Source: Ramlibacter monticola (GTDB lineage Bacteria; Pseudomonadota; Gammaproteobacteria; Burkholderiales; Burkholderiaceae_C). From it: 64,000 nt of DNA. The position numbers and the translations under genes were made by a program. This document shows positions 29,366 through 57,355 of this stretch, piece after piece. The stretch is from contig NZ_JAEQNE010000006.1 in the NCBI RefSeq assembly GCF_016722785.1, forward strand, positions 237,501 to 301,500. Reading direction: 5' to 3'. Position 1 is the stretch's first letter. Each line of letters opens with the position of its first letter. The notes under the pieces were generated by a model, which ran no database searches, was not told the DNA's origin, and was given only the letters and a program-made list of their open reading frames with translations.

Positions 29366-29449
29366 GCGCCGATCTCCCGGGGGGGTGATGGTCGGGGTTC
29401 ATTTCCGCCGGATGAGGGAATCGCAGGTGCGCGCAGCGGCCTTCTTGCC

Positions 29450-29576
29450 GGACCAGAGCGGGGCTGTCCGTCTCTGCGACTGTCCCCCGGCGCGGGTGAG
29501 ACGCGCGGCCCGGGGTGAGCGCCGCGCCCGCGCCTCCTCCTTTATGTCGCCGAGCCGGACAGCCCCGCTCTGGCCC
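29450..29576 (+). repeat. Hairpin-bounded module 1 (type 1)
   Basis: The left end GGACCAGAGCGGGGCTGTCC and the right end GACAGCCCCGCTCTGGCC are reverse complements apart from one base. Next to the left end is CGACTGTCCCCCGGCGCGG, next to the right end CTCCTCCTTTATGTCGCCG; these inner tags recur in all four modules. Module 4 (57086-57211) is its inverted counterpart. Confidence 0.85.
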
Positions 29577-29682
29577 TGCGCCGCGCCAGGTTCGTGCGCA
29601 GCGGCTTCGTTGACGCGTGCCGTATGCCGTCCCCCGCAAGAACCAGGTGCGCGAGGGAAGCTGCCGAATCGCGCGCTGCGCA

Positions 29683-29808
29683 GGACCAGGGCGGGCCTGT
29701 CCGCCTCGGCGACATAAAGGAGGGTGCGCGGGCGCGGCGAGCTTACGGGCCTGGACTCTCATCCGCGCCGGGGGACAGTCGCCGAGGCGGACAGGTCCGT
29801 CCTGGTCC
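29683..29808 (-). repeat. Hairpin-bounded module 2 (type 2)
   Basis: Same architecture as module 1 but reversed: the CGACATAAAGGAGG tag is at the left and the GGGGGACAGTCG tag at the right. The terminal repeats are of a second type (GGACCAGGGCGGGCCTGTCC on the left, GGACAGGTCCGTCCTGGTCC on the right). Its counterpart in copy 2 is at 56853-56978. Confidence 0.85.
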
Positions 29809-29909
29809 GGGCCACTGGCAACGAAGCGAGTCAGCGTATGACCGCGCCAATTCGAACGACAGTGCCTCTCCGCCGAACACCCTTCACCCCTTTGCCCCGC
29901 CAAGGCCAT

Positions 29910-32861
29910 TCACTCGCTGGGCGCCGACACGCTGCCGCTCGCCTGTCCCGCCGGTGCAGGGCTCGGGCTCGCATCGGCGCCCGACGGAACAGGCCCATTC
30001 GACTCGATCCGCGTGCTGCTGCCCGGCGACGTCCCCAGCGTGTCCGGGCGGCTGCCTCCGCCCGTAGTGGCCGTGGTATCGGGCCGGCTGCTCCCGCTCG
30101 GGGTGGAGGTCGTGGTCGTGTCCGGACGGTTGCTGCCGGCGGTGCCGCCGCGCATCGCCGTGCCGTCCGACCGCCCGTCCAGGTTCGTCGCCGGTTCCCG
30201 GCTGGTGGCGGGACCGCCGATACGGTCGTCCGCCCGGCTCGAGGGCCCGCCCAGCGTCGCCGTGGAGGAGCCGGTGCCCGCCGGTGGCGCCGTCCGCGCC
30301 GTCTGAGGAGGCGCCCGCACCACGTCCGGCGGCAGCGTCGGGTCGGGCGCATTCCGCGGCGTGTCGGGCATGCGGTAGACCTGCGTTCCCGGGATGGTGT
30401 CGATCGGCCGCGCGGGGGCGGGCTGCTCCAGCGGGCGCGGGAAGGCCGGGATGCGACGCGGCAGGTTGTCCGCGATCACCGGCGCATCCGGGGTCACCGC
30501 GGGCAGGGGCGCCGTCTCGGGCAGCGGCAGCGGCGGGGGCGCCACGGTGATCTGCTGCGGCGGCGGCTCGAGCACCGGCGGCTCCAGGTTGACCGGGGGC
30601 AGCGAGGCCACTTCCGGCTCGGACGCCGGCTCCGTGGGGATGTTGAACACGCTGTTCCACCAGTCGCCCATGCGATCCAGCAGGGGCTTCTCCTGGTCCC
30701 TCAGGCGCGGCGCGGCGAAGGCCGCCTTGGCATCGACCAGGTTCGCCTTGGTGGTCTGCTGCATGAAGTCGCCCACCAGCAGCAGCGCGTTGTGCGCGCC
30801 CTGCCCCCAGTAGGAACTGCGCATGGTCACGCGGTTGTCGTTGAAGCCGACCCAGGCGCCGGCCACCAGCTGCGGGTGCATCAGGATGAACCAGCCGTCG
30901 GTGTTGTCCTGGGTGGTGCCGGTCTTGCCGGCGAGGTCGCCGCTGAGGCCGAAGCGCGGCCGCAGGCCGGCGGCCGTGCCGTACTCGATCGTGCCGCGCA
31001 GCACGTCCAGCAGCGTCAGCGCGGCCTGGTTCTGCAGGGCCGGCTCGGGCGTGCGGGGCGCGAAGCTTTCCAGCACGTTGTGCTGGCGATCCTCCACCGC
31101 CGTCACGATCTGCGGCTCGATGTAGTTGCCGCCGTTGGCGATGGTGCCGAAGGACGCCACCATCTCCTTCAGCGTGACCGGGCTGGTGCCCAGGGCCAGC
31201 GAAGGCACTTCGTCCAGCTTGCTCTGGCGCACGCCCATCGCCCGCGCCAGGCCCGCCACGCGGGAGGGGCCGACCTGCATCATGAGCTGCGCGGTGATGG
31301 TGTTCTTGGACTTGGCGAGGCCGTCGCGCAGCGTCACGGGCAGGCCGGTCGGGGAGCCTTCGATGTCGCCCGGACGCCAGACCTTGTTGCGGTCGATCTG
31401 GATCTCCACCGGCTGGTCCATGAGGGTCTCGTTCGGCTGGTGCCCCATCTCGAAGGCGGCGCCGTACACGAAGGGCTTGAACGTGGAACCGGCCTGGCGC
31501 CGGGCCTGCTGCACGTGGTCGAACTTGTCCTCGGCGTAGTCGCGGCTGCCGACCCAGGCCTTCACGGCGCCGGTCTGCGGCTCGATCGCCAGGAAGCCGG
31601 CCTGCAGCAGGGTCTTCTGCCGCCGCAGCGCGCGCATGAATTCGGCGTTGGCCTGCAGGTCCTTGAGGGCCTGGGCCTCGCCCTGGCCCTGCTCGCGCGC
31701 CGCCTTGTACTCCTGCGAGTCCTTGATCCAGGCCTTCACCAGGTTCGGGTTGCTGTTCCAGAAGAATTCGAAGGGCGCGTACTTGCCGCGCGCCGCCGCG
31801 TAGTTGTTCGGATCGGACCCCAGCGCGACCAGCGCGCTGCGGCTCCACTCGACGTCCGCCACGGCCTGCAGCGCCCGGGTCTGGCGCTCCACCGCCTTCG
31901 TGGCCATCTCCTGCAGGCGGGAGTCGATGGTGGTCCGCACCACCAGGCCGTCGGCATAGATGTTGTAGTCGTGCCGGTCGGCCCACTCGATCAGCCAGCG
32001 GCGCAGGGATTCCGCCAGGTGCGGCGCCATGCCGTTGAATTCCGGCACCCGCTCGAAATCGAGCTTCATGGGCTGGGCCTTGAGCTGCTCGTAGCGCGCC
32101 TCGGGCAGCTTGCCCTCCTTGACCATCATGGCCAGCACCGTGTTGCGGCGCTGCAGCGCGCGTTCCGGGTTCATCACGGGGTTGTAGTAGGCCGTGCCCT
32201 TCAGCATGCCGACCAGCGTGGCGGCTTCCACCTCGTTGAGGTCTTTCGCGGACTTGTCGAAATAGGTCCGCGCGGCCATCTGGATGCCCCAGGCGTTGTA
32301 GAGGAAGGAAACGGAGTTGAGGTAGGTCTCCAGGATCTCCTCCTTGCTGTAGACCGCCTCGATCTTCAGCGCGGTGATCGCTTCCTTGACCTTGCGCGTG
32401 ACCGTCTGCTCGCGCCCGATCTGTCCCGGGTACAGGTTGCGCGCGAGCTGCTGCGTGAGGGTGGAGCCGCCTTCCACGTCGCCGTTGAGCGTGTTGAGCA
32501 CCGCCTTGGCCGTGCGCGCCACGTCGATGCCGTGGTGCTCGTAGAAGCGCTTGTCCTCGGTGGCGAGCAGGGCGTCCGTCACTTTCGGCGAGATGTCGGC
32601 AAGCTTCACCCAGTCGCGGTTGGCGCGCTTGAACACCGCCAGTTCCTTGCCGTCCGCCGACAGCACCACCGAGGGCTGTTCCTGCTTGGCCTTCTTGATG
32701 TCCCCGATGCTGGGCGTGAAGGGCAGCAGGGCCGCCGTGTACACGACGAGCGCCAGCGGCAGCGCGAGCGCGGCGCGCCATGGGTGCCGGCGGATCGCGC
32801 CGGCGATGCGCCGCAGGCCGGAGGCCGCGCGGCCCGTGACTCCCTCTGTCGCTCTTTTCAT
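29910..32861 (-). CDS. Class A penicillin-binding protein (PBP1a-type) with long disordered tail
   Basis: A 983-residue bifunctional peptidoglycan synthase. After a cytoplasmic basic segment and one membrane helix (AALALPLALVVYTAALLPF) comes the glycosyltransferase domain with the catalytic Glu in LLATEDKRFYEHHG near residue 102 and GGSTLTQQLARNL. The transpeptidase domain has the nucleophile motif STFK near residue 460, SKN, and KTGTT near 645. From about residue 715 the protein is Pro/Thr/Ser-rich and disordered, ending with three RPDT-containing repeats. The tail of over 250 residues is unusual. The gene stands alone, convergent with the csbD-like gene across the 462-bp repeat. Confidence 0.93.
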   Translation of the reverse strand: MKRATEGVTGRAASGLRRIAGAIRRHPWRAALALPLALVVYTAALLPFTPSIGDIKKAKQEQPSVVLSADGKELAVFKRANRDWVKLADISPKVTDALLATEDKRFYEHHGIDVARTAKAVLNTLNGDVEGGSTLTQQLARNLYPGQIGREQTVTRKVKEAITALKIEAVYSKEEILETYLNSVSFLYNAWGIQMAARTYFDKSAKDLNEVEAATLVGMLKGTAYYNPVMNPERALQRRNTVLAMMVKEGKLPEARYEQLKAQPMKLDFERVPEFNGMAPHLAESLRRWLIEWADRHDYNIYADGLVVRTTIDSRLQEMATKAVERQTRALQAVADVEWSRSALVALGSDPNNYAAARGKYAPFEFFWNSNPNLVKAWIKDSQEYKAAREQGQGEAQALKDLQANAEFMRALRRQKTLLQAGFLAIEPQTGAVKAWVGSRDYAEDKFDHVQQARRQAGSTFKPFVYGAAFEMGHQPNETLMDQPVEIQIDRNKVWRPGDIEGSPTGLPVTLRDGLAKSKNTITAQLMMQVGPSRVAGLARAMGVRQSKLDEVPSLALGTSPVTLKEMVASFGTIANGGNYIEPQIVTAVEDRQHNVLESFAPRTPEPALQNQAALTLLDVLRGTIEYGTAAGLRPRFGLSGDLAGKTGTTQDNTDGWFILMHPQLVAGAWVGFNDNRVTMRSSYWGQGAHNALLLVGDFMQQTTKANLVDAKAAFAAPRLRDQEKPLLDRMGDWWNSVFNIPTEPASEPEVASLPPVNLEPPVLEPPPQQITVAPPPLPLPETAPLPAVTPDAPVIADNLPRRIPAFPRPLEQPAPARPIDTIPGTQVYRMPDTPRNAPDPTLPPDVVRAPPQTARTAPPAGTGSSTATLGGPSSRADDRIGGPATSREPATNLDGRSDGTAMRGGTAGSNRPDTTTTSTPSGSSRPDTTATTGGGSRPDTLGTSPGSSTRIESNGPVPSGADASPSPAPAGQASGSVSAPSE

Positions 32862-33070
32862 GATGCGGTGTTCCTCATGGGTGGAGGAATTAGGGCGGCA
32901 CGGCGGTGGCGCGACTGTAGGACGGCTGCGCGGTGGGAACGGGGGCTTTGCCGCGTGCGGATTGCCCCTGCGGATGACGGAATGCGGGCGCGGTGGCCGG
33001 CCTTCGTACAGCCGTGCCGGAAGCCGTCCGACGAAAGGCCGCCCGCGGGCGGGCGGAACATGGATGCCCT

Positions 33071-33376
33071 ATGCAATTCGCCCTCCAGCCGCCGGCTTTC
33101 GTCTCCCGCCTGTTCGCGCGCGCCGAAGCGCCGCCGCGCGTCACCCGCTGGTACGCGGCCGGGGTGCGCCAGGGCACCACGCGCGAGATTCCCCGCATGG
33201 GCCCGCGCCAGACCGTGCACTGCCGCGATGGCGAAGCCTGGATCACGCACGACGGCGACCCGCGCGACATCGTGCTGCAGCCGCAGCAGAGCTATCGCGT
33301 GGAGGGCCACGGCAGGCGCATGACGGTGCATGCGCTGCGGGGCGATTGCGTGCTGGAGATCGAGGTCGGCGACTGA
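33071..33376 (+). CDS. DUF2917-family small protein
   Basis: A 101-residue protein of unknown function. The core QTVHCRDGEAWITHDGDPRD and DIVLQPQQSYRVEGHGRRMTVHALRGDC is a cupin-like beta sandwich pattern typical of DUF2917, where an aromatic and LxxG segments repeat. The ATG at 33071 gives a family-size protein; upstream codons in frame are not conserved-looking. It is divergent from the penicillin-binding protein gene and convergent with the response regulator at 33452. Confidence 0.7.
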   Translation: MQFALQPPAFVSRLFARAEAPPRVTRWYAAGVRQGTTREIPRMGPRQTVHCRDGEAWITHDGDPRDIVLQPQQSYRVEGHGRRMTVHALRGDCVLEIEVGD

Positions 33377-33423
33377 GCGCCGCTGCCGGCACGGTCGCAG
33401 GACGCGGCTGCCGTCAGCCCGGA

Positions 33424-33441
33424 TTCCCGCCTGCGCGGGAA
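33424..33441. repeat. Short palindromic repeat in convergent gap
   Basis: TTCCCGCCTGCGCGGGAA is a 7-bp stem with a 4-base loop, preceded by GGA. It is of the same type as the palindrome at 20437-20452 and, like it, lies between two convergent genes. No T-tract follows. Confidence 0.5.
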
Positions 33442-33451
33442 GGACGGGTGT

Positions 33452-34096
33452 TCAGCTGAGCGGATCCGCCAGCCCGTGCTTCAGTGCATACCGCACCAGC
33501 TCGGTCTGGTTGCTCAGCCCCAGCTTCTGCATCAGGTTGGCCTTGTGCGTGCTGACGGTCTTCACGGACAGGTTCAGCTGGTGCGCGATGTCGGAGACCG
33601 CATCGCCCGCCACCAGCAGCCGGAACACCTCGAACTCCCGGTCCGACAGGCTCTCGTGCGGCAGCGTGTCGCTGCCCGGCATGGCGCCCAGCGCGAGCTG
33701 CTCCGCCACTTCGGCGCTGATGTAGGCGCCGCCGCCGGCGATCTTGCGGATGGCCTGTTCGAGCTGCGCCGGCGCGCTTTCCTTGGTGAGGTAGCCGCTG
33801 GCGCCCGACTTGATGGCCCGCACCGCGTACTGCGTCTCCTGGTGCATGCTCAGGACCAGGATGCGCAGCTTCGGCTTCTCGGACTTGACGAGCTTGATCA
33901 GCTCCATGCCGCTGCGCCCCGGCATCGACAGGTCCAGCACCAGGATGTCGAACTCCAGCTCGCGCACGGCCTTCATCACCTCGCCGCCGTCCGCTGCCTC
34001 GCCGGTGACCTCCAGGTCCCCGGCCCCGCCGACGATGCGCTTGAGCCCCTCCCGGACGATCGCATGATCGTCCGCGATGACGATGCGGATCGTCAT
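33452..34096 (-). CDS. NarL/FixJ-family response regulator
   Basis: A 214-residue regulator. The receiver starts MTIRIVIADDHAIVREGLKR, the phospho-acceptor is in ILVLDLSMPGRSGMEL (about residue 54), and the Lys is in GYLTKESAP. The LuxR-type DNA-binding domain has LSDREFEVFRLLVAGD and DIAHQLNLSVKTVSTHKANL. The start overlaps the kinase gene by 4 bp (ATGA), which shows the pair is co-translated. Targets are unknown. Confidence 0.93.
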   Translation of the reverse strand: MTIRIVIADDHAIVREGLKRIVGGAGDLEVTGEAADGGEVMKAVRELEFDILVLDLSMPGRSGMELIKLVKSEKPKLRILVLSMHQETQYAVRAIKSGASGYLTKESAPAQLEQAIRKIAGGGAYISAEVAEQLALGAMPGSDTLPHESLSDREFEVFRLLVAGDAVSDIAHQLNLSVKTVSTHKANLMQKLGLSNQTELVRYALKHGLADPLS

Positions 34097-35148
34097 GCGT
34101 CGGCCCTGGTCGTGGGGATGCGGGCCTCCACGCGCGTGCCCGCGCCGGGGCTGCTGTCCACGCGCAGTTCGCCGCGCATCAGCTGGGCGCGCTCTCGCAG
34201 GCCCACCAGGCCCAGCGACTGCGGCTTGCGCGGCTGCGAGGGCCGGAAGCCGATGCCGTCGTCCTGCACCCGCAGCAATAGGTAGTCTCCCTCGGAATTC
34301 AGTTCCACCTCCACCTGGGTCGCCTCGGCGTGCTTGGCCACGTTCTGGAGCGACTCCTGCACGATCCGGAACACGCCGGTGGCGAAGGGTTCTTCCAGTT
34401 CGAGGTCCTCGTCGACGATCAGCTCGCAGGGCACGTGGGTGCGCTGCATGAAGTTCTGCACCACCCATTCCAGCGCCGGCACCAGCCCGAGGTCGTCCAG
34501 CACCAGCGGCCGCAGGTCGGCCGCGATGCGCCGGGTGGAGGCGACGCAGGTATCCAGCATGCTCAGCATGGTGGCGATCTTGGACTGCGCCTCGGGGTCG
34601 GCGGACAGGTGGTCGCGCAGCCAGATCGCGTCCATCTTGGCGGCGGTGAGCGACTGCGCCAGTTCGTCGTGCAGTTCGCGGGCGATGCGCGACTTCTCCT
34701 GCTCGCGCACGCCGGCCGATTCGGAGGCGAAGGCCGCCAGTTCCTCGCGCGCCCGCTCCCGCTCCGTGATGTCCCGCAGGATCACGGTATAGAGCTTGCC
34801 CTCGGGGGTGTTCAGCTGCGAGATCGAGGCGTCGATCGGGAATTCGTCCCCGCTCTTGCGCCGCGCGTACAGCACCGTGGTGTCGCCCATGCGACGCGAG
34901 GTCGTGCCGGTGGCGCCGAAGCGGCGCACCTGCTGCGCGTGCAGCTGGTGGAAGCGCGTCGGAATGAGCATTTCCAGCGGCTGCCCGATCGCCTCTTCGG
35001 GTGGCCAGCCGAAGATCCTTTCGGCGGCGCGGTTGTACAGCACGATCTTCTGCGTGTCGTCGCAGCTGATGATCGCATCCATGGCGGACTCGAGCAAGCC
35101 GGCCAGCCGCTGCTTGGCGTTGGCGTCGGAGAGGAGCGAGAAGGTCAC
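34093..35148 (-). CDS. Cytoplasmic PAS-domain sensor histidine kinase (HisKA_3)
   Basis: A 351-residue soluble kinase without membrane helices. An N-terminal PAS domain (AMDAIISCDDTQKIVLYNRA through ILRDITERERAREEL) is followed by the HisKA_3 box with phospho-His in RIARELHDELAQSLTAAKMD and a HATPase with NVAKHAEA, DDGIGF and GLVGLRERAQLM. This layout resembles oxygen- or redox-sensing PAS kinases, but no haem or flavin ligand can be assigned. The start is GTG at 35146-35148. It pairs with the regulator at 33452. Confidence 0.9.
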   Translation of the reverse strand: MTFSLLSDANAKQRLAGLLESAMDAIISCDDTQKIVLYNRAAERIFGWPPEEAIGQPLEMLIPTRFHQLHAQQVRRFGATGTTSRRMGDTTVLYARRKSGDEFPIDASISQLNTPEGKLYTVILRDITERERAREELAAFASESAGVREQEKSRIARELHDELAQSLTAAKMDAIWLRDHLSADPEAQSKIATMLSMLDTCVASTRRIAADLRPLVLDDLGLVPALEWVVQNFMQRTHVPCELIVDEDLELEEPFATGVFRIVQESLQNVAKHAEATQVEVELNSEGDYLLLRVQDDGIGFRPSQPRKPQSLGLVGLRERAQLMRGELRVDSSPGAGTRVEARIPTTRADA

Positions 35149-35320
35149 AGAATGTCGCCTGTCATAGCCCGCAAATTACAGCACAACCTGAGCGCCGCCA
35201 ACATGGCTCGTCAGGCTCGATGCGGGGTCGAGGGCGCCAGGGTGCTGCCGCAATGGTCCTACACCCCGCCCCAAAGGGACCTGACAGGGGGGGCGCGGCC
35301 CCGGTCCGAGACTCTTCCAC

Positions 35321-36070
35321 GTGCTGGCGCTCGAAGATCCCGTCACCCCCAACTCCGTCCCCCCAGCGGCCGGTGGCCCCGATGCGTCGCCCCAGCGCCT
35401 GCGCAGTCTCGCCCGGGCCGCGCAGCACGACATCCTGAGGCGCCTGACGCCGCCGCTGCGGCACGACATGGTGGTGCCCCTGCAGTCCCTGGGCATGATG
35501 GCCGAAGCGCTGGGCGCCCGCATGGACCGGGGCGCGGTCGCCCCGGACGATCTCCAGGCCGCCGTCTCCAGGCTCAACCGTCTGTCGCGCCAGGCCGTCG
35601 CGCGCTGCCTGGAGGTCTGCACCTGGATGCAGGCCGACGAGGACGATTCCGTCGAACTGCGCGAGGGCGTGTCGGAGGTGCTGCGGCTGCTCTCCACCAG
35701 CCTCAATTTCCGCGGATTCGACCTGCGCACCGAGCCGGGCGACGGCGATTTCGAGGTCTCGCGCAGCGCCGTGCGCTTCCTCCTCTCGGCGGCCCTCCTC
35801 ACCCTGGCCGACGCGGCACCGGGCCCGGGCGAGCTGGTGGTGCGCACCGAGCGCTCCTCCTCCCACGGCGTGGTGGCGGTGGAATACCAGCCGCGGCCGG
35901 ATGGCAGTTCCACCCAGCCGCACGAGCCGGGCGATTGCCCGCTGGCGTGGCCGGAGGTGCAGGCGCTGGCCGTGCAGCATGGCGTGGAACTGCTGCGCAA
36001 CGGCCCGGCGATCATGCTGCGCCTGCCCCGCGCGGTGGTCACGAGCCCGCTGAAGATGGTTCCGGTGTGA
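35321..36070 (+). CDS. Histidine phosphotransfer/DHp-like protein of unknown role
   Basis: A 249-residue soluble protein. It has a helical segment RRLTPPLRHDMVVPLQSLGMM whose central His and flanking pattern resemble a kinase dimerisation helix, and a second half (VRFLLSAALLTLADAAPGPG to the end) with the outline of a HATPase but lacking N, G1 and G2 boxes. It may be a ChpT-like phosphotransfer protein or a pseudokinase. The start is GTG at 35321. Its last 32 bp overlap the end of the convergent GGDEF-EAL gene. The single receiver gene at 38632 could be a partner; this is inferred. Confidence 0.65.
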   Translation: MLALEDPVTPNSVPPAAGGPDASPQRLRSLARAAQHDILRRLTPPLRHDMVVPLQSLGMMAEALGARMDRGAVAPDDLQAAVSRLNRLSRQAVARCLEVCTWMQADEDDSVELREGVSEVLRLLSTSLNFRGFDLRTEPGDGDFEVSRSAVRFLLSAALLTLADAAPGPGELVVRTERSSSHGVVAVEYQPRPDGSSTQPHEPGDCPLAWPEVQALAVQHGVELLRNGPAIMLRLPRAVVTSPLKMVPV

Positions 36071-38546: not shown

Positions 38547-38631
38547 GGCACGATCCCGGTTTCCGCGGTAGGCAGGCTCCTACATGCAAACGCGGGGGCC
38601 TCCGAAAAGAGGGCCTGGCTGAGCGGATAGA

Positions 38632-39078
38632 GTGCCTTACGCCTTGGAACCGACACCCACCCCATCGCCCGTGCAACTCGCGGTCTTCCTCGTCGAGGAC
38701 AACACGGAGATCCATGAAAACCTCGTGGGCGCGCTCGAGGCACTCACCTGCGTCAAGGTGATCGGCGGCGCGACCACCGAGGAAGGCGCGCTGGCCTGGA
38801 TCGCCGCGCGCACGGACTGGCACATGGTCATCGTCGACCTGTTCCTCCGGGGCGGCAGCGGCATGCGCCTCGTGCAGCGGGTGCAGCGCGCCCGCGCCGA
38901 CCAGAAGATCGTCGTCTTCAGCAACTACGTGAACGCCAGCGTGCGCAAGCGCTGCGCCCAGCTGGGCGTGGATGCGGTGTTCGACAAGTCCACCGAGATC
39001 GACGCGCTGGTGGACTACTGCGCGCACCAGTGCAGCCTGCTGGCCGCGTCCGGACCTGCGGCCGGAGGTCCCCCGTGA
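38632..39078 (+). CDS. Single-domain response regulator
   Basis: A 148-residue receiver protein with no output domain. Acidic residues lie in VFLVEDNTEIHENLV, the phospho-acceptor Asp in MVIVDLFLRGGSGMRL near residue 66, and the conserved Lys in VFDKSTEID near 116. The best start is GTG at 38632. It is divergent from the GGDEF-EAL gene (85 bp between starts), which suggests that they act in one pathway. The partner kinase is not certain. Confidence 0.88.
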   Translation: MPYALEPTPTPSPVQLAVFLVEDNTEIHENLVGALEALTCVKVIGGATTEEGALAWIAARTDWHMVIVDLFLRGGSGMRLVQRVQRARADQKIVVFSNYVNASVRKRCAQLGVDAVFDKSTEIDALVDYCAHQCSLLAASGPAAGGPP

Positions 39079-47993: not shown

Positions 47994-48052
47994 GGCGCCT
48001 CGCCACCCGGCTCCTAAGCTGGGGGCAGGCGCGAGCTTGCGCCCGCCCCTTC

Positions 48053-49954: not shown

Positions 49955-49966
49955 GGAGAAAACGAG

Positions 49967-50644
49967 ATGTCCCCCGTTCGCCTGCTGGTCGTCGACGACC
50001 ACACCCTGTTCCGCCGCGGACTCGTCGCCCTGCTGGCGGCCGACCTCAGCGTCGAAGTGGTGGGCGAGGCCGCCGACGCACCCGAGGCCGTACGCAAAGC
50101 CGGTGCCCTGCAGCCGGACCTCATCCTGCTGGACAACCACCTGCCCGGCGCCACCGGCATCCAGGCGCTGGCGGAGCTGCGCGAGGCGGCGCCGCTGGCC
50201 AAGGTGGTGCTGCTCACCGTGAGCGAGGACGACCAGGACCTGCGGATGGCGCTGCAGGGCGGCGCCAACGGCTACCTGCTCAAGACCATCGAGGGCGACA
50301 TGCTGATCGCCTGCATCCACCGCGTGATGCGGGGCGAGCCCGTGATCAGCCCGGAGCTCATGACCCGGCTGGTGACGGCGCTGCAGGCCGGCGGCGCGCA
50401 GGCCCTCTCGGCCCTGAGCGCCGAGCCGACCCCGCACCCGGAAGGGGCGGCCCTGCTCTCCCCGCGCGAGCAGGAGGTGCTGCAGGAGATCGCCCGCGGC
50501 GCCAGCAACAAGGAGATCGCGCGCGCGCTGCAGATCGCCGAGACCACGGTGAAGATCCACGTCCAGCACATCCTGCGCAAGCTCGGCGTGAGCTCGCGGG
50601 TGCAGGCAGCGGTGGTGGCGACGGCGGGACAGGCGCGCATGTAG
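49967..50644 (+). CDS. narL: NarL-type nitrate/nitrite response regulator
   Basis: A 225-residue regulator. Receiver residues lie in LLVVDDHTLFRRGLVALLAA, LILLDNHLPGATGIQAL (phospho-Asp near residue 56) and GYLLKTIEGD, and the LuxR-type DNA-binding domain in LSPREQEVLQEIARGASNKE, then KEIARALQIAETTVKIHVQH. The sequence agrees well with NarL. Its partner kinase NarX is directly upstream. Targets likely include the narK/narG operon at the window end; no NarL heptamer pattern was firmly identified. Confidence 0.93.
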   Translation: MSPVRLLVVDDHTLFRRGLVALLAADLSVEVVGEAADAPEAVRKAGALQPDLILLDNHLPGATGIQALAELREAAPLAKVVLLTVSEDDQDLRMALQGGANGYLLKTIEGDMLIACIHRVMRGEPVISPELMTRLVTALQAGGAQALSALSAEPTPHPEGAALLSPREQEVLQEIARGASNKEIARALQIAETTVKIHVQHILRKLGVSSRVQAAVVATAGQARM

Positions 50645-50681
50645 GGGTGTGGCCGGCGATCGGCCGCCACTGCAACAACCG

Positions 50682-50780
50682 AACGCAGGGTGCGCAAAGG
50701 TGCAGAGAACGCAAAAGAACATCCTTCAAAGGTTTTTTTTGCGTCCTCTGCGTCCCTTTGCGCCCTCTGCGTCCGGATGT
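50682..50780. repeat. Long imperfect inverted repeat between narL and norB operon
   Basis: Left arm AACGCAGGGTGCGCAAAGG with GCAGAGAACGCAAAA pairs with right arm TTTTTTTTGCGTCCTCTGCG and CCCTTTGCGCCCTCTGCG. Together they form a hairpin of about 35 bp with an A+T-rich loop. The phrases GCAAAGG and GCAGAGG recur in short steps. It resembles dispersed intergenic repeats seen in many proteobacteria, and could act as a terminator of narXL because of the T run. Confidence 0.65.
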
Positions 50781-50812
50781 TGTAGTGAACCCCCATTACG
50801 CCCCGTTGCGTA

Positions 50813-50835
50813 AAGGTGTATTTGAAATAGACCTT
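50813..50835. promoter_or_regulatory. NsrR-type operator 1 upstream of the norB operon
   Basis: Left arm AAGGTGTATTT, a central G, and right arm AAATAGACCTT; the arms are complementary but for one base pair and fit the NsrR 11-1-11 consensus well. It abuts the FNR box at 50835. NsrR is encoded downstream at 53583. Confidence 0.7.
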
Positions 50836-50848
50836 TGACCCAGATCAA
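50835..50848. promoter_or_regulatory. FNR-type box upstream of the norB operon
   Basis: TTGACCCAGATCAA, nine of ten of the full consensus. If it acts at position -41.5, transcription would start near 50883, inside NsrR-type operator 2. A GACATT at 50871-50876 is a weak -10 candidate at the right place. Confidence 0.75.
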
Positions 50849-50875
50849 ATCGGGTCTGCCCGGGCTCCGCGACAT

Positions 50876-50898
50876 TAGGTGCATCCGAAATGCACCTT
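50876..50898. promoter_or_regulatory. NsrR-type operator 2 upstream of the norB operon
   Basis: Left arm TAGGTGCATCC, central G, right arm AAATGCACCTT. The 8-bp inner arms AGGTGCAT and ATGCACCT are perfectly complementary. It covers the predicted start of transcription and would block it when NsrR is NO-free (inferred). Confidence 0.7.
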
Positions 50899-50915
50899 AT
50901 CCAAGAGGAGCCCGC

Positions 50916-51206
50916 ATGAGCCAGACCGCAGTCCGCATCGACGTCCAGTCCCTTCCGCCGCACGTGCGGCATTCCACGATCTTCGCCACCTTCGGCGAGC
51001 TGGCCACCGGCCAGGGGCTGGAGCTCGTGAACAACCACGATCCGCGCCCCCTGTTCTTCCAGTTCCAGAACTTCGTGCCCGGCCAGTTCGACTGGGCCTA
51101 CCTGGAGCAGGGGCCGCAGACCTGGCGCGTCGCGATCAAGCGCATCAAGGACGGCGCCGCCTACGACGGCGGCAGCAGCTGCTGCGGCGGCGGCTGCGGC
51201 GGCTGA
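50916..51206 (+). CDS. DUF2249-family protein with cysteine-rich tail, co-operonic with norB
   Basis: A 96-residue cytoplasmic protein. The core has IDVQSLPPHVRHSTIFATFG, GLELVNNHDPRPLFFQFQNF and GQFDWAYLEQGPQTWRVAI, the DUF2249 pattern (TusA-like fold), and the C-terminus is SSCCGGGCGG, a possible metal or Fe-S site. The start MSQTAVRID follows a strong ribosome binding site (AAGAGGAG); a longer frame runs through the operator region. norB starts 51 bp downstream. DUF2249 genes are regularly beside NO-detoxification genes, but their function is not established. Confidence 0.85.
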   Translation: MSQTAVRIDVQSLPPHVRHSTIFATFGELATGQGLELVNNHDPRPLFFQFQNFVPGQFDWAYLEQGPQTWRVAIKRIKDGAAYDGGSSCCGGGCGG

Positions 51207-51257
51207 ACCCCTCCTCCGCCCGAATCCATCGCCCTTCCTCTTTACGAGTCAAGATCC

Positions 51258-53534
51258 ATGCGAAGCAACAACACTCTCTGGCGCTGGCTGGCACTGATCT
51301 TCGTGCTGTCCTTCGGCGTCCTCGGTTACCTGGGCTACCAGATCTACCTGACGGCCCCTCCCATCCCGCAGAAGGTGGTCAGCACCGATGGCCAGGTGCT
51401 CTTCACCGGTGAACAGATCCAGAAGGGCCAGCAGGTCTGGCTCGCCGCCGGCGGCCAGCAGCAGGGCTCCGTCTGGGGCCACGGCGCCTACGTCGCGCCC
51501 GACTGGTCGGCCGACTGGCTGCACCGCGAAGCGGTCGCCCTGCAGACCCTGCGCGCCAAGGCCATCGTCAGCGACCCCTCCGCCCTGAAGCCCGCCGAGC
51601 GCGGCGCCGTCGACGCGGCGGTGAAGGACGAGATGCGCCGCAATACCTACGACGCCGCCACCGGCGCCGTCTCGGTGTCCCCGGTCCGCGCCCAGGCCAT
51701 CCGCGAAGTCACCGACCACTACACCGGCCTGTTCGGCAATGCCGCCTCGCTGTCCAAGCTGCGCGAGCAATACGCCATGCGCGACGGCACCGTGCCCGAC
51801 GCCGCCGAGCGCCAGGCCCTGAGCGCCTTCTTCTTCTGGAGCGCCTGGGCCGCCGGCACCGACCGTCCGAACGACCCCGGCATTTCCTACACCAGCAACT
51901 GGCCGCACGAGCCGCTGATCGGCAACACCATGACGGCCTCGGCCGCGATGTGGTCGGTCGCCTCCGTGATCCTGCTGCTGGCCGGCATCGCCGCCCTGCT
52001 GTGGCTGCACGGCGCCGGCAAGCACGAGGAAGAAGCCGTCCCGCCCAAGAGCGACCCGCTGGCGGGCGCCAAGGCGACGCCTTCCATGAAGGCCACCCGC
52101 AAGTACTTCTTCGTCGTGATCGGCCTGATGCTGCTGCAGATCGCCATGGGCGCCATCACCGCGCACTACGCGGTCGAAGGCCAGTCCTTCTTCGGCCTGC
52201 CGATCGGCGACCTGCTGCCCTACGTGACCAGCCGCACCATCCACACGCAAGTGGGCATTTTCTGGATCGCCACCGCGTGGCTCGCCACCGGCCTCTACAT
52301 CGCCCCGCTGCTCGGCGGCAAGGAACCCAAGCTGCAGAAGCTGGGCGTGGACGTCCTGTTCTGGGCGCTGATCGCGATCGTGGTCGGCTCCACCGCCACC
52401 GGCTGGCTCGGCACCCTGCAGCACCGCGGCGTCGACTTCGCCTTCTGGCTCGGCAACCAGGGCCTGGAATTCACCAGCATGGGCCGCGTCTGGCAGATCC
52501 TGCTGTTCATCGGCCTGCTGTTCTGGGCCTTCCTGCTCGGCCGCGCCCTGTGGCCCGCGCTGACCAAGCCCTCGGAAAGCCGCGGCCTGATCGCCATGGT
52601 GTTCCTGTCGGCCGTCTGCATCGGCGGCTTCTACTCCACGTCGCTGACCTGGGGCCAGAACACCCACTACTCGATGGTGGAGTACTGGAGGTGGTGGCTG
52701 GTGCACCTGTGGGTGGAGGGCTTCTTCGAAGTGTTCGCCACCGCGGTGATCGCGCTGATCTTCACCAAGCTGGGCCTGGTCCGCGCCGAGAGCGCCAACC
52801 GCGCCATCATCGCCGAGACCATCGTGTTCCTGTTCGGCGGCATCCTGGGCACCCTGCACCACCTGTACTGGACCGGCACGCCGGTGTCCGTGATCGCCGT
52901 CGGCGCCGTGTTCTCCGCGCTGGAAGTGGTTCCGCTGACGCTGATCGGCCTGGAAGCCCTGCAGACCTGGAAGCGCTCGCAAGGCATCGCCTGGCTGAAC
53001 GCCTACAAGTGGCCCACCCTGTGCTTCGTCGCCGTGGGCTTCTGGAACACCGTCGGCGCCGGCCTGCTCGGCTTCGCGATCAACCCGCCGGCCTCGCTGT
53101 ACTACGTGCAGGGCCTGAACATGACCGCCGCCCACGGCCACGCCGCCCTGTTCGGTGTCTACGGCATGCTCGGCATCGGCCTGATGCTGTTCTGCCTGCG
53201 CGGCCTCTATGCCCGCCACCTGCACGCCGACGGCTGGATCAAGCCCGCCTTCTGGAGCCTGAACATCGGCCTGGCCATGATGGTGTTCATGTCGCTGCTG
53301 CCCGCCGGCATCTACCAGGCGTACGCGGCGATCACCAAGGGCCTGTGGTTCGCCCGCTCGCCGGAAGTGATCCACTCCGGCGTGATGGAAACCCTGGTGT
53401 GGCTGCGCGTCCCCGGCGACATCGTGTTCGCCATCGGCGCGGTCCTGCTCGGCGTCTATGCCCTCAAGCTGCTGCGGCGCGACACCTCGCCGCAAGGAGT
53501 GGCTACGGGTGAGATGGCATCCGTGACGAGGTAA
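51258..53534 (+). CDS. norB: NorB/NorZ, quinol-dependent nitric oxide reductase (qNor)
   Basis: A 758-residue single-subunit NO reductase that reduces two NO to N2O with electrons from quinol. Residues 1-220 form the extra N-terminal helix and a periplasmic cytochrome-c-like fold without haem (KVVSTDGQVLFTGEQIQKGQ, then SNWPHEPLIGNT). The rest is a 12-helix haem-copper oxidase core with metal-binding histidines in VTSRTIHTQVGIFW, WWLVHLWVEGFFEVF, GTLHHLYWTGTP and NMTAAHGHAALFGVYG, and the Glu-rich region of NO reductases (GFFEVF, FSALEVVPL). The length and absence of norC confirm the quinol type. It may act in denitrification as well as in NO defence. Confidence 0.97.
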   Translation: MRSNNTLWRWLALIFVLSFGVLGYLGYQIYLTAPPIPQKVVSTDGQVLFTGEQIQKGQQVWLAAGGQQQGSVWGHGAYVAPDWSADWLHREAVALQTLRAKAIVSDPSALKPAERGAVDAAVKDEMRRNTYDAATGAVSVSPVRAQAIREVTDHYTGLFGNAASLSKLREQYAMRDGTVPDAAERQALSAFFFWSAWAAGTDRPNDPGISYTSNWPHEPLIGNTMTASAAMWSVASVILLLAGIAALLWLHGAGKHEEEAVPPKSDPLAGAKATPSMKATRKYFFVVIGLMLLQIAMGAITAHYAVEGQSFFGLPIGDLLPYVTSRTIHTQVGIFWIATAWLATGLYIAPLLGGKEPKLQKLGVDVLFWALIAIVVGSTATGWLGTLQHRGVDFAFWLGNQGLEFTSMGRVWQILLFIGLLFWAFLLGRALWPALTKPSESRGLIAMVFLSAVCIGGFYSTSLTWGQNTHYSMVEYWRWWLVHLWVEGFFEVFATAVIALIFTKLGLVRAESANRAIIAETIVFLFGGILGTLHHLYWTGTPVSVIAVGAVFSALEVVPLTLIGLEALQTWKRSQGIAWLNAYKWPTLCFVAVGFWNTVGAGLLGFAINPPASLYYVQGLNMTAAHGHAALFGVYGMLGIGLMLFCLRGLYARHLHADGWIKPAFWSLNIGLAMMVFMSLLPAGIYQAYAAITKGLWFARSPEVIHSGVMETLVWLRVPGDIVFAIGAVLLGVYALKLLRRDTSPQGVATGEMASVTR

Positions 53535-53541
53535 GCTGCGG

Positions 53542-53563
53542 AGGCCGGCGCAAGCCGGCCTTT
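53542..53563 (+). terminator. Possible terminator after norB
   Basis: GGCCGGC and GCCGGCC form a perfect 7-bp stem with loop GCAA, followed by only three T residues. It may partly end the norB transcript before nsrR, which starts 20 bp later. Confidence 0.55.
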
Positions 53564-53582
53564 GCCGTTGAGGGGACCCCCG

Positions 53583-54050
53583 ATGAAACTGACCACCTTC
53601 ACCGACTACAGCCTGCGCGTGCTGATCTACCTGGCCGCGCAACCCGCCGACCGCGCCACGATCGCGCAGATCGCCGGCGCGTTCCAGGTGTCCGAGAACC
53701 ATTTGGTCAAGGTGGTGCACTTCCTCGGCAAGCAGGGCTGGCTGACCAACGTGCGCGGCAAGGGAGGTGGGATGGAACTCGGGATGCCCCCCGAGGCGAT
53801 CGTCGTCGGCAAGGTGGTGCGGGAAACCGAAGGCCTGAGCCAGTTGGCCGAATGCTTCGGCGAGACCGACGGCGACTGCGCCATCGCCCCCGACTGCCGC
53901 CTGCGCGGCGTGCTGGGCGAATCCATCAAGGCCTTCTACGGCGTGCTGGACCGCTACACCCTCGCCGACCTGGTCGGCAACCGCAAGCAGCTCGCGCAGA
54001 TCCTGTTCGTCGAGCGCGACGCCGCGCCACGCAAGGGAGCCCGCCCATGA
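53583..54050 (+). CDS. nsrR: NsrR, NO-sensing Rrf2-family repressor
   Basis: A 155-residue Rrf2 protein. The start MKLTTFTDYSLRVLIYLAAQ and QVSENHLVKVVHFLGKQGWL form the winged helix; GGGMELGMPPEAIVVGKVVR is the wing and linker. Three Fe-S cysteines occur in ECFGETDGDC and APDC, with C-x7-C-x5-C spacing as in NsrR. The cluster reacts with NO and releases DNA. Operators that fit it are upstream of norB and of nosZ. Its stop overlaps the next start (ATGA), beginning a four-gene coupled operon. Confidence 0.95.
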   Translation: MKLTTFTDYSLRVLIYLAAQPADRATIAQIAGAFQVSENHLVKVVHFLGKQGWLTNVRGKGGGMELGMPPEAIVVGKVVRETEGLSQLAECFGETDGDCAIAPDCRLRGVLGESIKAFYGVLDRYTLADLVGNRKQLAQILFVERDAAPRKGARP

Positions 54051-54382
54051 GCGACGAAGACCGCTTCATCTACTCCGGCCCGCCGGAACTGCTGCCGCCC
54101 CTGGTCGAAGCGCTGGAACGCGTGGTGGACCCGGAGGTGGCCCTCAACATCGTCGACGTCGGCCTCGTGTACGGCGTCGTCGTCAAGGACAAGCGCATGG
54201 ACGTCAGCGTGACGATGACCTCGGCCGCCTGCCCGGTCACGGACACGATCATCGACGACATCGAAACCCAGCTGGACCGGGCCCTGCCGCCCGACATGCT
54301 GATCCACGTGGAGCTGGTCTGGGAGCCGCCATGGACGCCCGAGCGCATGAGCGACAAGGCCCGCGGCTTCATGGGCTGGTGA
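54047..54382 (+). CDS. MIP18/DUF59-family iron-sulfur assembly factor (SufT/PaaD-like)
   Basis: A 111-residue protein with the DUF59 core LERVVDPEVALNIVDVGLVY, the single conserved Cys in TMTSAACPVTD, and a C-terminal VELVWEPPWTPERMSDKARG typical of this group. Members help mature Fe-S proteins. Coupled by ATGA to nsrR and by an overlap to the next gene, it may repair NO-damaged clusters, including that of NsrR; that role is inferred. Confidence 0.88.
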   Translation: MSDEDRFIYSGPPELLPPLVEALERVVDPEVALNIVDVGLVYGVVVKDKRMDVSVTMTSAACPVTDTIIDDIETQLDRALPPDMLIHVELVWEPPWTPERMSDKARGFMGW

Positions 54383-55488
54383 ACCCTCGTTCCGTCATCG
54401 CCGGCTCGCTGGTCGCCTGCGTGGCGGCGGCGCTGCTCTCCGGCATCGCCGGCGGCCTGCTGCGCGTGGGCATCACCCTGCCGGTGGCGGCCGACGCCCC
54501 CTGGCTCACCCGCGCCGCCCTCGCCCATGCCGCGCTGATGATGTGCGGCTTCATGGGCACCGTGATCTCCATCGAGCGTGCCGTCGCCTTCAAGCATCGC
54601 GCCGCCTGGACGGCCCCGTTCGCCTCGGGCGCCGCCGCCCTCGCCCTCCTGTGCGGCGCCCAGCTGCCCGCCGCCCTGCTGCTGGTGCTCGGCTCCGGCG
54701 CCTTCGTCCTCGTCAACGCGCTGCTGCTGCGCCGCCAGCCCGCGGCCCACACCGCCCTGCTGCTCGCCAGCGCCGTCGCCTGGTTCACCGGCAACGTGCT
54801 GCTGGCCGTGGGCGCCAGCAGCAGCACCGTGCTGCCCTGGTGGTTCGCCTTCCTGGTGGTGACCATCGCCGCCGAACGCCTCGAGATGACCCGCCTGATG
54901 CGGCGCCGCCGCGGCGCCCAGCCCGCGCTGCACCTCGTGCTGGCCGCGCTGGCCTGGGGCGCCGCCTGTTCCGGCCTCGAGCCGCGCTTCGGCGGCGTGC
55001 TGTTCGGCGCCGCGCTGTGCGGCCTGGCCGCCTGGCTGCTCGCCTTCGACATCGCGCGGCGCACGGTGCGCGCCGAAGGCCTGTCGCGCTACATGGCCGT
55101 GTGCCTGCTCGGGGGCTACGTGTGGCTCGCCATCGGCGGCGTCGCCTGGGGCGCCACGGCCCTCGGCTATCCGGTGCGCGACATCGCCCTGCACGCGCTC
55201 GGGCTCGGCTTCATCGTCAGCATGATCATGGGCCACGCGCCGGTGATCCTGCCCGCCGTCACCCGCGTGAAGCTGCAGTTCGGCAACTTCTTCTACCTGC
55301 CCCTGCTCGCGCTGCACCTGTCGCTCGCCCTGCGCCTGGCCGGCGGCGCGGTGGACTTCCACCTCCGCGCCCAGGGGGCCCTTTTCAACGCACTGGCCAT
55401 CGCGCTGTTCGCCGCCACCGCCGGCGGCTCCGCGCTGGCCTGGCGGCAGCGGCAGGGGCCGCGCCGCGTTTCCGACCCGAGACCATGA
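54379..55488 (+). CDS. Polytopic membrane protein of the nsrR-nnrS operon
   Basis: A 369-residue hydrophobic protein with roughly ten helices. I do not recognise a named family with certainty; regions such as LAHAALMMCGFMGTVISIER and GLGFIVSMIMGHAPVILPAV have the histidines and glycines seen in NnrS-like proteins, so it may be a distant NnrS relative. The start is GTG at 54379, overlapping the previous stop (TGGTGA), and its own stop overlaps nnrS (ATGA). Full coupling to nsrR, a SufT-like gene and nnrS points to NO stress or denitrification. Confidence 0.8.
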   Translation: MNPRSVIAGSLVACVAAALLSGIAGGLLRVGITLPVAADAPWLTRAALAHAALMMCGFMGTVISIERAVAFKHRAAWTAPFASGAAALALLCGAQLPAALLLVLGSGAFVLVNALLLRRQPAAHTALLLASAVAWFTGNVLLAVGASSSTVLPWWFAFLVVTIAAERLEMTRLMRRRRGAQPALHLVLAALAWGAACSGLEPRFGGVLFGAALCGLAAWLLAFDIARRTVRAEGLSRYMAVCLLGGYVWLAIGGVAWGATALGYPVRDIALHALGLGFIVSMIMGHAPVILPAVTRVKLQFGNFFYLPLLALHLSLALRLAGGAVDFHLRAQGALFNALAIALFAATAGGSALAWRQRQGPRRVSDPRP

Positions 55489-56675
55489 GCAGCTTCTTCC
55501 AGATCGAGGAACCGCCGCGCGCCGCCCCGCGTGGCTTCGCCCTGTGGCAACTGGGCTTCCGGCCCTTCTACCTGCTGGCCAGCGCCTTCGCCGCCGTGTC
55601 CATCCTGCTGTGGGGCCTGCAGTTCACCGGCCACCTCGCCGCGCCCTACCTGCCGGGCGCGCTGTGGCACGCGCACGAGATGCTGTTCGGATTCGCGCTG
55701 GCGGTGATCGTGGGCTTCCTGTTCACGGCGGGACGCAACTGGACCGGCCTGCCCACGCCCACCGGCGGCAAGCTCGCCGCGCTGGCCGTCCTCTGGCTGC
55801 TCGCGCGGGTGCTGGTGCTCACGCCCTGGGGCTGGCTCTCCGCCGTCGCCAACACCGCCTTCCCGCTCGCGGCGGCCGTCGCGCTGGGCATTCCCTTCGT
55901 GAAGGCGGGCAACCGCCGCAACTACTTCTTCGTCGGCGTGCTCACGCTGCTGGGGCTGGGGTCCCTCGCCGTGCACCTGAACCAGCTGGGCGTGGTGGCC
56001 CTGCCGGCCTGGGCCGGCATCCAGCTCGGGCTGGACGCGGTGCTGTTCGTCCTGTGCGTGATGGGCGGACGGGTGATCCCCATGTTCACGATCAACGGCG
56101 TGCCCGGCGCGGCGTCGCGGCGCCATCCCCGGGTGGAGCAGGTGGCACTGGGCTCGGTGCTCGCGCTGTTCGCGGCCGACGCCCTGCAGGCGCCGCCGCT
56201 GGTGCTGGGCGCCGTCGCGGCCGTCGCCGCCCTCGCCCACCTGGCGCGCTGGGTGCTGTGGCAGCCGTGGGTCACGCTGCGCACGCCACTGGTGTGGGTG
56301 CTGCATCTCGCGTACGCCTGGATCCCGGTGCACCTCGCGCTGCGCGCCCTGGCCGCCGCCGGCTGGGTCGCGCCTTCCGCTGCCATCCATTCGCTGACCG
56401 TCGGCGCCATCGGCGGCCTGGTGATCGGAATGATGACCCGCACCGCCCGCGGCCACACGGCCCGTCCGCTGCGCGCCGACCGGCGCGACGTCGCCTGCTA
56501 CCTGCTGGTCGCCAGCGCCGCCTTCGTGCGCGTGCTGGTGCCGCTCGCCGCGCCCGCCTTCACCATGGAGGCCGTGCTGTGCGCCGCCACGCTGTGGTCG
56601 GCCGGCTTCGCGCTGTACTTCGTGAGCTACTGGAACGTGCTGACCCGCCCACGCCTGGACGGCCGTCCCGGCTGA
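55485..56675 (+). CDS. nnrS: NnrS-family haem-copper membrane protein
   Basis: A 396-residue polytopic membrane protein (about twelve helices). NnrS marks are WQLGFRPFYLLASAFAAVSI, HAHEMLFGFALAVIVGFLFT, GRVIPMFTINGVPG and HSLTVGAIGGLVIGMMTRTARGH, where the last glycine-rich helix ends with TARGHTG-like residues. NnrS relieves NO stress and keeps metabolism running during denitrification. It is the last gene of the coupled nsrR operon and is followed by a strong terminator. Confidence 0.94.
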   Translation: MSSFFQIEEPPRAAPRGFALWQLGFRPFYLLASAFAAVSILLWGLQFTGHLAAPYLPGALWHAHEMLFGFALAVIVGFLFTAGRNWTGLPTPTGGKLAALAVLWLLARVLVLTPWGWLSAVANTAFPLAAAVALGIPFVKAGNRRNYFFVGVLTLLGLGSLAVHLNQLGVVALPAWAGIQLGLDAVLFVLCVMGGRVIPMFTINGVPGAASRRHPRVEQVALGSVLALFAADALQAPPLVLGAVAAVAALAHLARWVLWQPWVTLRTPLVWVLHLAYAWIPVHLALRALAAAGWVAPSAAIHSLTVGAIGGLVIGMMTRTARGHTARPLRADRRDVACYLLVASAAFVRVLVPLAAPAFTMEAVLCAATLWSAGFALYFVSYWNVLTRPRLDGRPG

Positions 56676-56709
56676 CGCGCATGCCCTGAATTCATTTCAG
56701 CCCTCTTGG

Positions 56710-56744
56710 TCCCGCACGGGTTCGCCCCTGCGGGATTTTTTTTT
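56710..56744 (+). terminator. Strong intrinsic terminator after nnrS
   Basis: Outer stem TCCCGCA / TGCGGGA and inner stem GGG-TTCG-CCC, followed by nine T residues. It closes the nsrR-nnrS operon and lies 60 bp before copy 2 of the 462-bp repeat. Confidence 0.92.
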
Positions 56745-56852
56745 GGTCCTTCGCCGATTTGCGGGAAACGGGTGAATTCGCGTTCGGCGGGGAGCGCACC
56801 GTGGTTCGAATTGGCGCGGTCCTGCGCTGGTTCGATTCGTTGCCAGTGGGCC

Positions 56853-56978
56853 GGACCAGGACGGGCCTGTCCGCCTCTGCGACTGTCCCCCGGCGCGGAT
56901 GAGAGCCCAGGCCCGTAAGCTCGCCGCGCCCGCGCCTCCTCCTTTATGTCGCCGAGCCGGACAGGCCCGCCCTGGTCC
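56853..56978 (+). repeat. Hairpin-bounded module 3 (type 2)
   Basis: Left end GGACCAGGACGGGCCTGTCC and right end GGACAGGCCCGCCCTGGTCC are reverse complements apart from one position. Inner tags CGACTGTCCCCCGGCGCGG and CTCCTCCTTTATGTCGCCG are as in module 1. Confidence 0.85.
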
Positions 56979-57085
56979 TACGCAGCGCGCGGATCAGGCA
57001 GCTTCCCTCGCGCACCTGCTTCTCGCGGTGCACCACTTGCGGTACGCGTCAACGAAGCCGCTGCGCCCGAACCCGGCGCGGCGCA

Positions 57086-57211
57086 GGACCAGAGCGGGGC
57101 TGTCCGGCTCGGCGACATAAAGGAGGAGGCGCGGGCGCCGCGCTCACCCGGGGTGCGGTTCTCACCCGCGCCGGGGGACAGTCGCAGAGACGGACAGCCC
57201 CGCTCTGGTCC
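57086..57211 (-). repeat. Hairpin-bounded module 4 (type 1)
   Basis: Left end GGACCAGAGCGGGGCTGTCC and right end GGACAGCCCCGCTCTGGTCC are perfect reverse complements over 20 bases. The CGACATAAAGGAGG tag is at the left and GGGGGACAGTCG at the right. It is the inverted counterpart of module 1. Confidence 0.85.
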
Positions 57212-57355
57212 GGCAAGAAGGCCGCTGCGCGCACCCGAGGATGCCCTCATCCGGCAGAAGTGAACCCTGGCCAGCAGCCCTGGAGATTGGCGAATAACTT
57301 TCAGCGGCTGTCACTGCGACAGCCCGGACGCCCCCCAGGCGACCGCACTTCCACC

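Follow-up and report, generated by a model that had tools for sequence, protein, structure and literature searches.

Inverted hairpin doublets with covarying arms and a conserved purine-rich loop form a dispersed repeat family in Ramlibacter monticola and its relatives

The window analyzed here, a stretch of 64,000 nucleotides from Ramlibacter monticola, carries a compound repeat of 462 bases in two copies, one at 29396-29857 and the other, inverted, at 56804-57266. Each copy holds two head-to-head hairpin modules of about 130 bp with paired arms. A preliminary description of the locus had reported two 462-bp elements and four modules, and all of these were recovered by a covariance model of the module (R1) together with repeat searches. 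Some of its particulars need adjustment. The copies are alike, but the term near-identical is slightly strong because their identity is 91%. Inverted repeats do close each module, but in the window modules they measure 31-34 bp (88-94% complementary) rather than about 21 bp. Likewise, the 462-bp repeat is real but is part of a longer insertion, which alignment with sister copies places approximately at 29359-29907 (insertion 1) and 56745-57299 (insertion 2, inverted relative to insertion 1). The degenerate ends of the insertion read GGTTCTTCGCCGATCT / AAATCGGCGAAGAACC, with insertion 2 ending in AGTTATTCGCCAATCT and AAATCGGCGAAGGACC. Insertion 1 lies directly 3' of a terminator-like T-run, between a terminator-like inverted repeat at 29334-29362 and the end of a penicillin-binding-protein-like (PBP1A-like) gene. 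By sequence, the small gene before this inverted repeat looks like csbD, and the other neighbor looks like a penicillin-binding protein.

We designate as the S strand of a module the strand that reads ATAAAGGAGGAG first. In insertion 1, R1 detects a module at 29443-29581 with its S strand on minus (108.5 bits; arms 29447-29480 / 29546-29579) and type 1 arms (GAGCGGGGC), and one at 29678-29815 with its S strand on plus (101.8 bits; arms 29683-29713 / 29778-29808) and type 2 arms (GGGCGGGCC / GGTCCGTCC), which form G.U pairs on the S strand. Insertion 2 holds a type 2 module at 56846-56983, S strand on minus (114.0 bits; arms 56853-56883 / 56948-56978), and a type 1 module at 57081-57218, S strand on plus (116.9 bits; arms 57083-57116 / 57181-57214). 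Because the modules are palindromic, four weaker R1 mirror matches appear on the opposite strands. Motif search with up to 2 mismatches places the conserved loop strand GCGACATAAAGGAG at 29537-29550 (-), 29709-29722 (+), 56939-56952 (-) and 57112-57125 (+), that is, at 4 places in the window and without a mismatch at any of them; the expectation from shuffled sequence is 0.18. The opposite loop strand, GCGACTGTCCCCCG (equivalent to GGGGGACA on the S strand), lies at 29476-29489 (+) in the module at 29443-29581, and its counterpart in the module at 29678-29815 lies at 29769-29782 (-); searched alone at the same tolerance, GCGACTGTCCCCCG occurs 5 times in the window against 2.09 expected, which is not significant, as 11 of 100 shuffles reach 5. 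Both the whole 462 bases (z of -17.65, reached by 0 of 100 shuffles) and a single module (z of -6.39, 0 of 200) fold far better than shuffled sequence.

The repeat extends well beyond the window. A blastn search with one module against the source genome (6.14 Mb in 19 contigs) yields 46 places at E <= 1.0e-17, beyond which there are weaker partial or mirror matches, and the tag CGACATAAAGGAG has 36 exact copies in this genome versus 1 for a reversed control. Confinement of the module to the two sites of the window, which would have spoken against the preliminary reading, is thus refuted by these places and by many relatives. An exact pattern matched only the source genome among 299 genomes of the family, whereas the structure model matches many, because arm sequence is almost free. 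Within the genus, blastn detects the 462-base unit in 15 of 60 genomes, and R1 at E <= 1e-5 matches 39 of 147 near genomes, namely 29 from the genus, 8 from other genera of the family and 2 from another family. At the level of the order, R1 matches 13 of 300 genomes and a shorter model, R2, matches 19 of 399 genomes in 10 of 159 genera; at the level of the class 3 of 274 genomes match. Each of these counts from the 462-base unit onwards includes the source genome. One of the class-level matches is in a family without earlier matches, with 13 matches there. Copies per genome obtained with R1 and R2 are lower bounds because 11-24 candidates were scored per genome, with strict filters that drop weak matches, and the searched genomes include some that are incomplete or carry partial contamination. 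The distribution of the family is patchy, which is suggestive of transfer or repeated loss.

A pattern scan of genome contigs returned two stretches, one from Ramlibacter alkalitolerans and one from a Clostridia MAG; the latter is a chance occurrence without arms and was left out of later counts. When R. alkalitolerans loci were aligned (8 given, 7 modules found), homology outside the module proved patchy. At three loci of this species (L114, L115 and L116) another repeated GC-rich sequence, about 250 bases long, comes after the single modules and looks like a second repeat family. A query of 376 window bases matched none of the plasmid and phage records. Among viral contigs one pattern gave a single stretch and another none; the single stretch holds an R2 module of 60 bits (L300, 7354-7427) on the IMG/VR contig IMGVR_UViG_3300024949_000020, which is 42.8 kb long and classed as viral, but may represent a prophage or host DNA.

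In an initial set of 82 modules, drawn from the first loci, arm pairing was counted outward from the tags, with the stem unaligned, against 1000 shuffles of the right arms. Stem positions 18-26 are Watson-Crick in 654 of 738 cases (shuffled mean 380, maximum 436), and positions 35-45 pair no more than shuffled arms do (226 of 902, mean 246); the end of the stem was therefore set there. Positions 6, 10 and 32 are mostly mismatched in these modules: position 10 departs from Watson-Crick pairing in 66 of the 82, but more rarely in a wider non-redundant set, and position 6 is still mismatched in 51 of 76 non-redundant modules. RNAalifold, applied to 32 diverse modules (alignment A1, comprising 32 of 35 non-redundant modules, with L018, L019 and L097 left out), predicts 31 pairs, 27 of them with compensated double changes. 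In 28 more diverse modules spanning genera (alignment A2, 28 of 29 modules, with L134 left out), 22 of 23 pairs show double changes. Here, 161 double-change cells stand against a shuffled mean of 48.2, with 0 of 500 shuffles reaching the observed count and slid versions giving at most 37, and the covariation score, which is other than that of R-scape, is 0.696 against 0.189 for shuffled and at most 0.132 for slid alignments. Hence, the covariation of the arms that was first noticed in the window holds in a wider alignment. In both the outer and the inner stem the sequence changes across genera and the pairing stays, and lineages can share little of the arm sequence of the outer stem yet keep the same loop. 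The selected secondary structure proposed from the co-changing arms is accordingly supported by stem covariation and by the dispersal of the family, and we conclude that this is a real, structure-conserved, dispersed repeat family.

The two strands of a module can be compared because every G.T pair on one of them corresponds to an A.C mismatch on its complement. In 76 non-redundant modules out of 216, with credit for Watson-Crick pairs only, the S strand has 144 G.U against 19 A.C, with G.U commoner in 60 modules and A.C in 4. Crediting G.T in the selection of modules gives 148 against 21, and an earlier set of 35 modules chosen by tags gives 43 against 13 in the same sense. The S strand is also more stable than its complement in 72 of 76 modules with RNA parameters and in 73 of 76 with DNA energies, and the folding preference therefore does not tell RNA from DNA. 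A G.U-type strand bias would not be expected of a cruciform in duplex DNA, and these sequence statistics show which strand folds. This refines the earlier inference of a selected structure, in that the structure belongs to one strand.

Between the outer and inner stems a purine-rich internal loop is kept, with RTNAAGGAGGAG facing GGGGGACA. The facing pair A8.G3' occurs in 188 of 216 modules and is swapped to G8.A3' in 13, with one-sided changes to AA in 3, GG in 1 and CG in 11; G7.G4' occurs in 210, replaced by A.T 4 times and by A.G 2 times. One-sided loop changes (15 of 216) are thus about as many as double ones. The loop changes match what would be expected if the S strand folds, with the reservation that the A-to-C replacements (11 modules) affect one side only. 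Opposite the loop-adjacent GA stands TC in 129 of 216 modules and GA in 74, the latter being a possible tandem GA pair. The module finder used for these counts demands the loop with at most 1 mismatch per side, so that loop conservation is partly built in, whereas stem covariation is not; it misses degenerate modules, among them the window module at 29678-29815 (the second module of L001), and returns a stem length of 0 for some tandem-GA modules, which inflates some spacers. In modules of many genera, the loop strand often holds AAAGGAGG on the S strand, which we take to look like a perfect Shine-Dalgarno sequence, with its complement presumably resembling the 3' end of 16S rRNA.

The hairpins, which are about 100-140 nt long across the family, have a fixed mutual orientation. 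In 81 of 82 neighboring pairs less than 300 bases apart the S strands point away from each other, in 1 they have the same orientation and in none do they face each other; the spacing between the hairpins of these 82 doublets is 20-222 bp. The 5' arms within a doublet have a median identity of 61% (66 pairs), and self-pairing per module has a median of 93% with G.T counted. With gene positions from a simple codon-usage gene caller, only 1 of 235 modules is mostly inside a called gene, and the median distance from a module to a gene 3' end is 64.5 nt. Module-bearing gaps are convergent in 63 cases, co-directional in 66 and divergent in 10 (n = 139), as against 5, 16 and 16, respectively, among the few (n = 37) control gaps without a module, taken from the same loci and at least 120 bases long; an earlier count assigned 72 clusters to 30 convergent, 31 co-directional and 4 divergent gaps, with 7 at edges. 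Where a co-directional gap holds a single module, the module has the sense orientation in 18 of 26 cases. The modules therefore usually sit between genes and downstream of them.

The site of insertion 1 is empty in related genomes. We fetched 30 PBP1A-like loci, some of which may be paralogues, and searched 20 of them with R1, one being that of the source genome itself: both modules are present in the source genome and modules are absent from all 19 others (one locus per genome). Both neighbors are recognizable by blastn in 9 PBP1A-like loci, and in 6 of these the gap was read and contains no module. In two relatives (L242 and L250) the gap between the csbD-like and penicillin-binding-protein-like genes holds another short palindromic sequence, and this gap seems to attract palindromes, because the two hold a different palindrome there. 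As judged by eye, the insertion end abuts a T- or A-run in many of the copies in the source genome, the run often coming from a terminator, and their flanks show no consistent target-site duplication, the ends being degenerate. The ends GGTTCTTCGCCGATCT / AAATCGGCGAAGAACC are found near 18 of 39 modules of the source genome (0-2 of 39 in reversed or shuffled controls) and near 4 of 14 modules of R. alkalitolerans (controls 0 of 14), and elsewhere near 6 of 165 modules, which is the control level (2-7 of 165); thus, by sequence, they appear to be partly shared with R. alkalitolerans. As no excision or transposition event was observed, we infer mobility only from the copies and the one empty site.

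The preliminary description had also envisaged target-site duplications and a partner transposase with matching ends; both were looked for in part and none were found. None of twelve Y1_Tnp loci, comprising the single one of the source genome and 11 located in ten of twelve further genomes, has an R1 match closer than about 1.5 kb, and two module-bearing genomes (G020 and G537) lack any Y1_Tnp match. The enzyme that would move the doublet is probably not a RAYT. The single Y1 transposase gene of the source genome (L124, G000:C14:382163) is bounded by repeated ends of its own that contain GGGGTCAGA; the same motif occurs at several Y1 genes of relatives, and the gene would represent a separate RAYT-like system. 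The degenerate insertion ends resemble what we take to be ISL3-type ends, ISL3 being the sole transposase family searched besides Y1. The one PF01610 match, in a draft genome, was rejected as a partner: it is a 404-aa frame without flanking paired GGTTCTTCGCCGA ends, and we read it as a fatty-acid desaturase. Neighboring frames of 80 or more amino acids with codon-position bias were also clustered; by eye, none of the 14 largest clusters resembles a recombinase-like family, the largest (14 genomes) resembling ABC transporters and the other 13 host genes. A DUF4357 gene at L182 (1634-2533, genome G329) lies between a minus-strand and a plus-strand module about 1.2 kb apart; it was dismissed as a partner and taken as cargo or chance.

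We then compared the family with known repeats. ERIC is an imperfect intergenic palindrome of about 127 bp, like these modules, but differs in its host range and in having conserved arms; the 10-base GGGGTGAGCG overlaps an ERIC primer, presumably by chance. Searches of Rfam, with 1,201 bases of the window and with 10 loci at a permissive threshold, gave no gathering-score match, and in the open-access literature we recognized no repeat as the hairpin-doublet element. REPINs, in the available part of their description, are linked to adjacent RAYTs (PMC3116915). The present elements share with REPIN/REP doublets an organization as many-copy, extragenic, inverted hairpin doublets, and with REPINs a doublet that looks like the replicating unit and a fold predicted in single-stranded DNA or mRNA (PMC3116915, same part). 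REPs, as far as the available text of PMC3733652 describes them, are 20-40 bp long and end with GTAG or CGTC. Like such tagged repeats, the modules are palindromic and extragenic; unlike those repeats, which a terminal tetranucleotide defines (PMC3733652), the modules have GTAG at 0 of 171 hairpin ends, with CGTC at 4 of 171 5' ends and 6 of 171 3' ends. Unlike REPs, the hairpins here are about 100-140 nt long, with the internal loop as their conserved part and free arms, and unlike REPINs they have no RAYT adjoining the modules at 12 loci. The element thus fails two REPIN features, a RAYT flanked by the same repeats and a 20-40 bp palindrome with GTAG/CGTC, and, though its working may be REPIN-like, it is not to be filed as a REPIN because no adjoining RAYT (Y1_Tnp) was found.

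The nearest published repeat that we found is BRE (Beta-proteobacterial repeat element), which the available sections of PMC3110155 describe as GC-rich, about 90 bases long and present in Bordetella and Comamonadaceae, with one locus giving rise to 80-nt and ~200-nt RNAs. In common with our family, it is GC-rich, betaproteobacterial including Comamonadaceae, and mostly intergenic, with up to 29 copies per genome, and its length is similar to that of R2 matches, whose arms were cut to 20 bp (PMC3110155, same sections). BREs are sometimes tandem and variable in number, whereas the neighbor here is inverted in 81 of 82 pairs and in the same orientation in 1, and section 14 of that source describes them without a hairpin or covariation (PMC3110155). 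The two may overlap, and they are set apart here by description only. The family was unrecognized in the preliminary description, and remains so in having no Rfam gathering-score match, RAYT link or GTAG end tag, with the comparison to BRE being one of descriptions.

On balance, and with confidence a little above even, we regard the family as small, non-autonomous, gene-less mobile elements, that is, inverted hairpin doublets moved by an enzyme encoded elsewhere. The unit would be an inverted doublet of hairpins of about 100-140 nt, each with a long outer and a short inner stem, free in sequence while paired, around the conserved purine-rich loop. The enzyme would recognize not the arm sequence but the single-strand fold, comprising the outer helix and the purine loop, and would spread the doublet; arms could then drift freely because the fold would be what is recognized. 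In the source genome the doublet would ride in the ~550-bp insertion, often abutting terminator T- or A-runs, and would work like a REPIN. This reading rests on repetition, extragenic position near gene ends, covariation, the one-strand fold, the fixed orientation and the empty orthologous site. Against it, an RNA element would fit the fold equally well, and an RNA role would predict the lean towards the sense strand (18 of 26). Under that alternative the S strand would function at the RNA level within 3' UTRs, in protection of the mRNA 3' end, in processing or in protein binding at the purine loop, with host selection keeping the fold and dispersal being secondary. It would account for the excess of G.U on one strand, for the tandem GA and the purine loop, both of which are features of RNA structure, for the median distance of 64.5 nt after gene 3' ends, for the rarity of divergent gaps (10 of 139; controls, 16 of 37), and for the sense bias of single modules. 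However, read-through of a doublet meets both orientations, and since a transcript would meet one module in each, half of the doublet copies would be antisense; moreover, a 3'-UTR function does not require the fixed orientation (81 of 82), species differ in copy number and position, and DNA energies also favor the S strand (73 of 76). We consider this alternative unlikely.

Polymerase template switching, which is known at quasi-palindromes, could also copy one arm onto the other and produce covariation without selection, and the arms are indeed near-perfect inverted repeats that change together. Such neutral correction would erase mismatches, whereas position 6 stays mismatched in 51 of 76 modules, position 10 in 66 of 82 of the first set, and the tandem GA persists; it predicts no strand bias, whereas G.U is about 7.6 times A.C; and the non-Watson-Crick loop pairs change together as well. 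Already weakened by these observations, it appears very improbable. An ordinary MITE, mobilized by a DDE transposase through the ends of the ~550-bp unit and carrying the hairpins as passengers, would agree with the occurrence of GGTTCTTCGCCGATCT / AAATCGGCGAAGAACC above controls in the source genome and R. alkalitolerans. Elsewhere these ends are at the control level (6 of 165) though the doublet is the same, no duplication was seen, and the one family searched offered no matching transposase, leaving this explanation improbable.

Conserved sequence is the usual basis on which palindromic repeats of bacteria are catalogued. In the present family the arm sequence is almost free, and what persists across several bacterial families is the pairing, the loop and the mutual orientation. 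A tentative and still rather doubtful prospect is a class of mobile repeats recognized by shape, in which an enzyme would bind a single-strand rod of two free helices and a fixed homopurine loop and move the doublet. If this were true and the recognized strand were RNA, the family could spread via an RNA copy, as a bacterial counterpart of SINE-like retroposition. The family is well suited to the question of which strand is recognized in such repeats and by which enzyme, and the order-wide set of modules supplies natural compensatory variants for a binding test.

The modules themselves appear to be sites of insertion. Six modules have an insertion-sequence end beginning TGACCCGTCCTG at an identical position of the stem, in the 3' arm in L018, L019, L027 and L053 (CGGACAG|) and in the 5' arm in L014 and L042 (...CTG|). 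As contigs stop at these points, one junction per site is all that can be seen; an insertion sequence with this end seems to target the module, because the same stem point recurs six times. At L041 an integrase-core (rve) protein is encoded by an insertion sequence at a contig end next to another module, and we assume this insertion sequence to belong to the same type. REPs, too, are known targets of insertion sequences.
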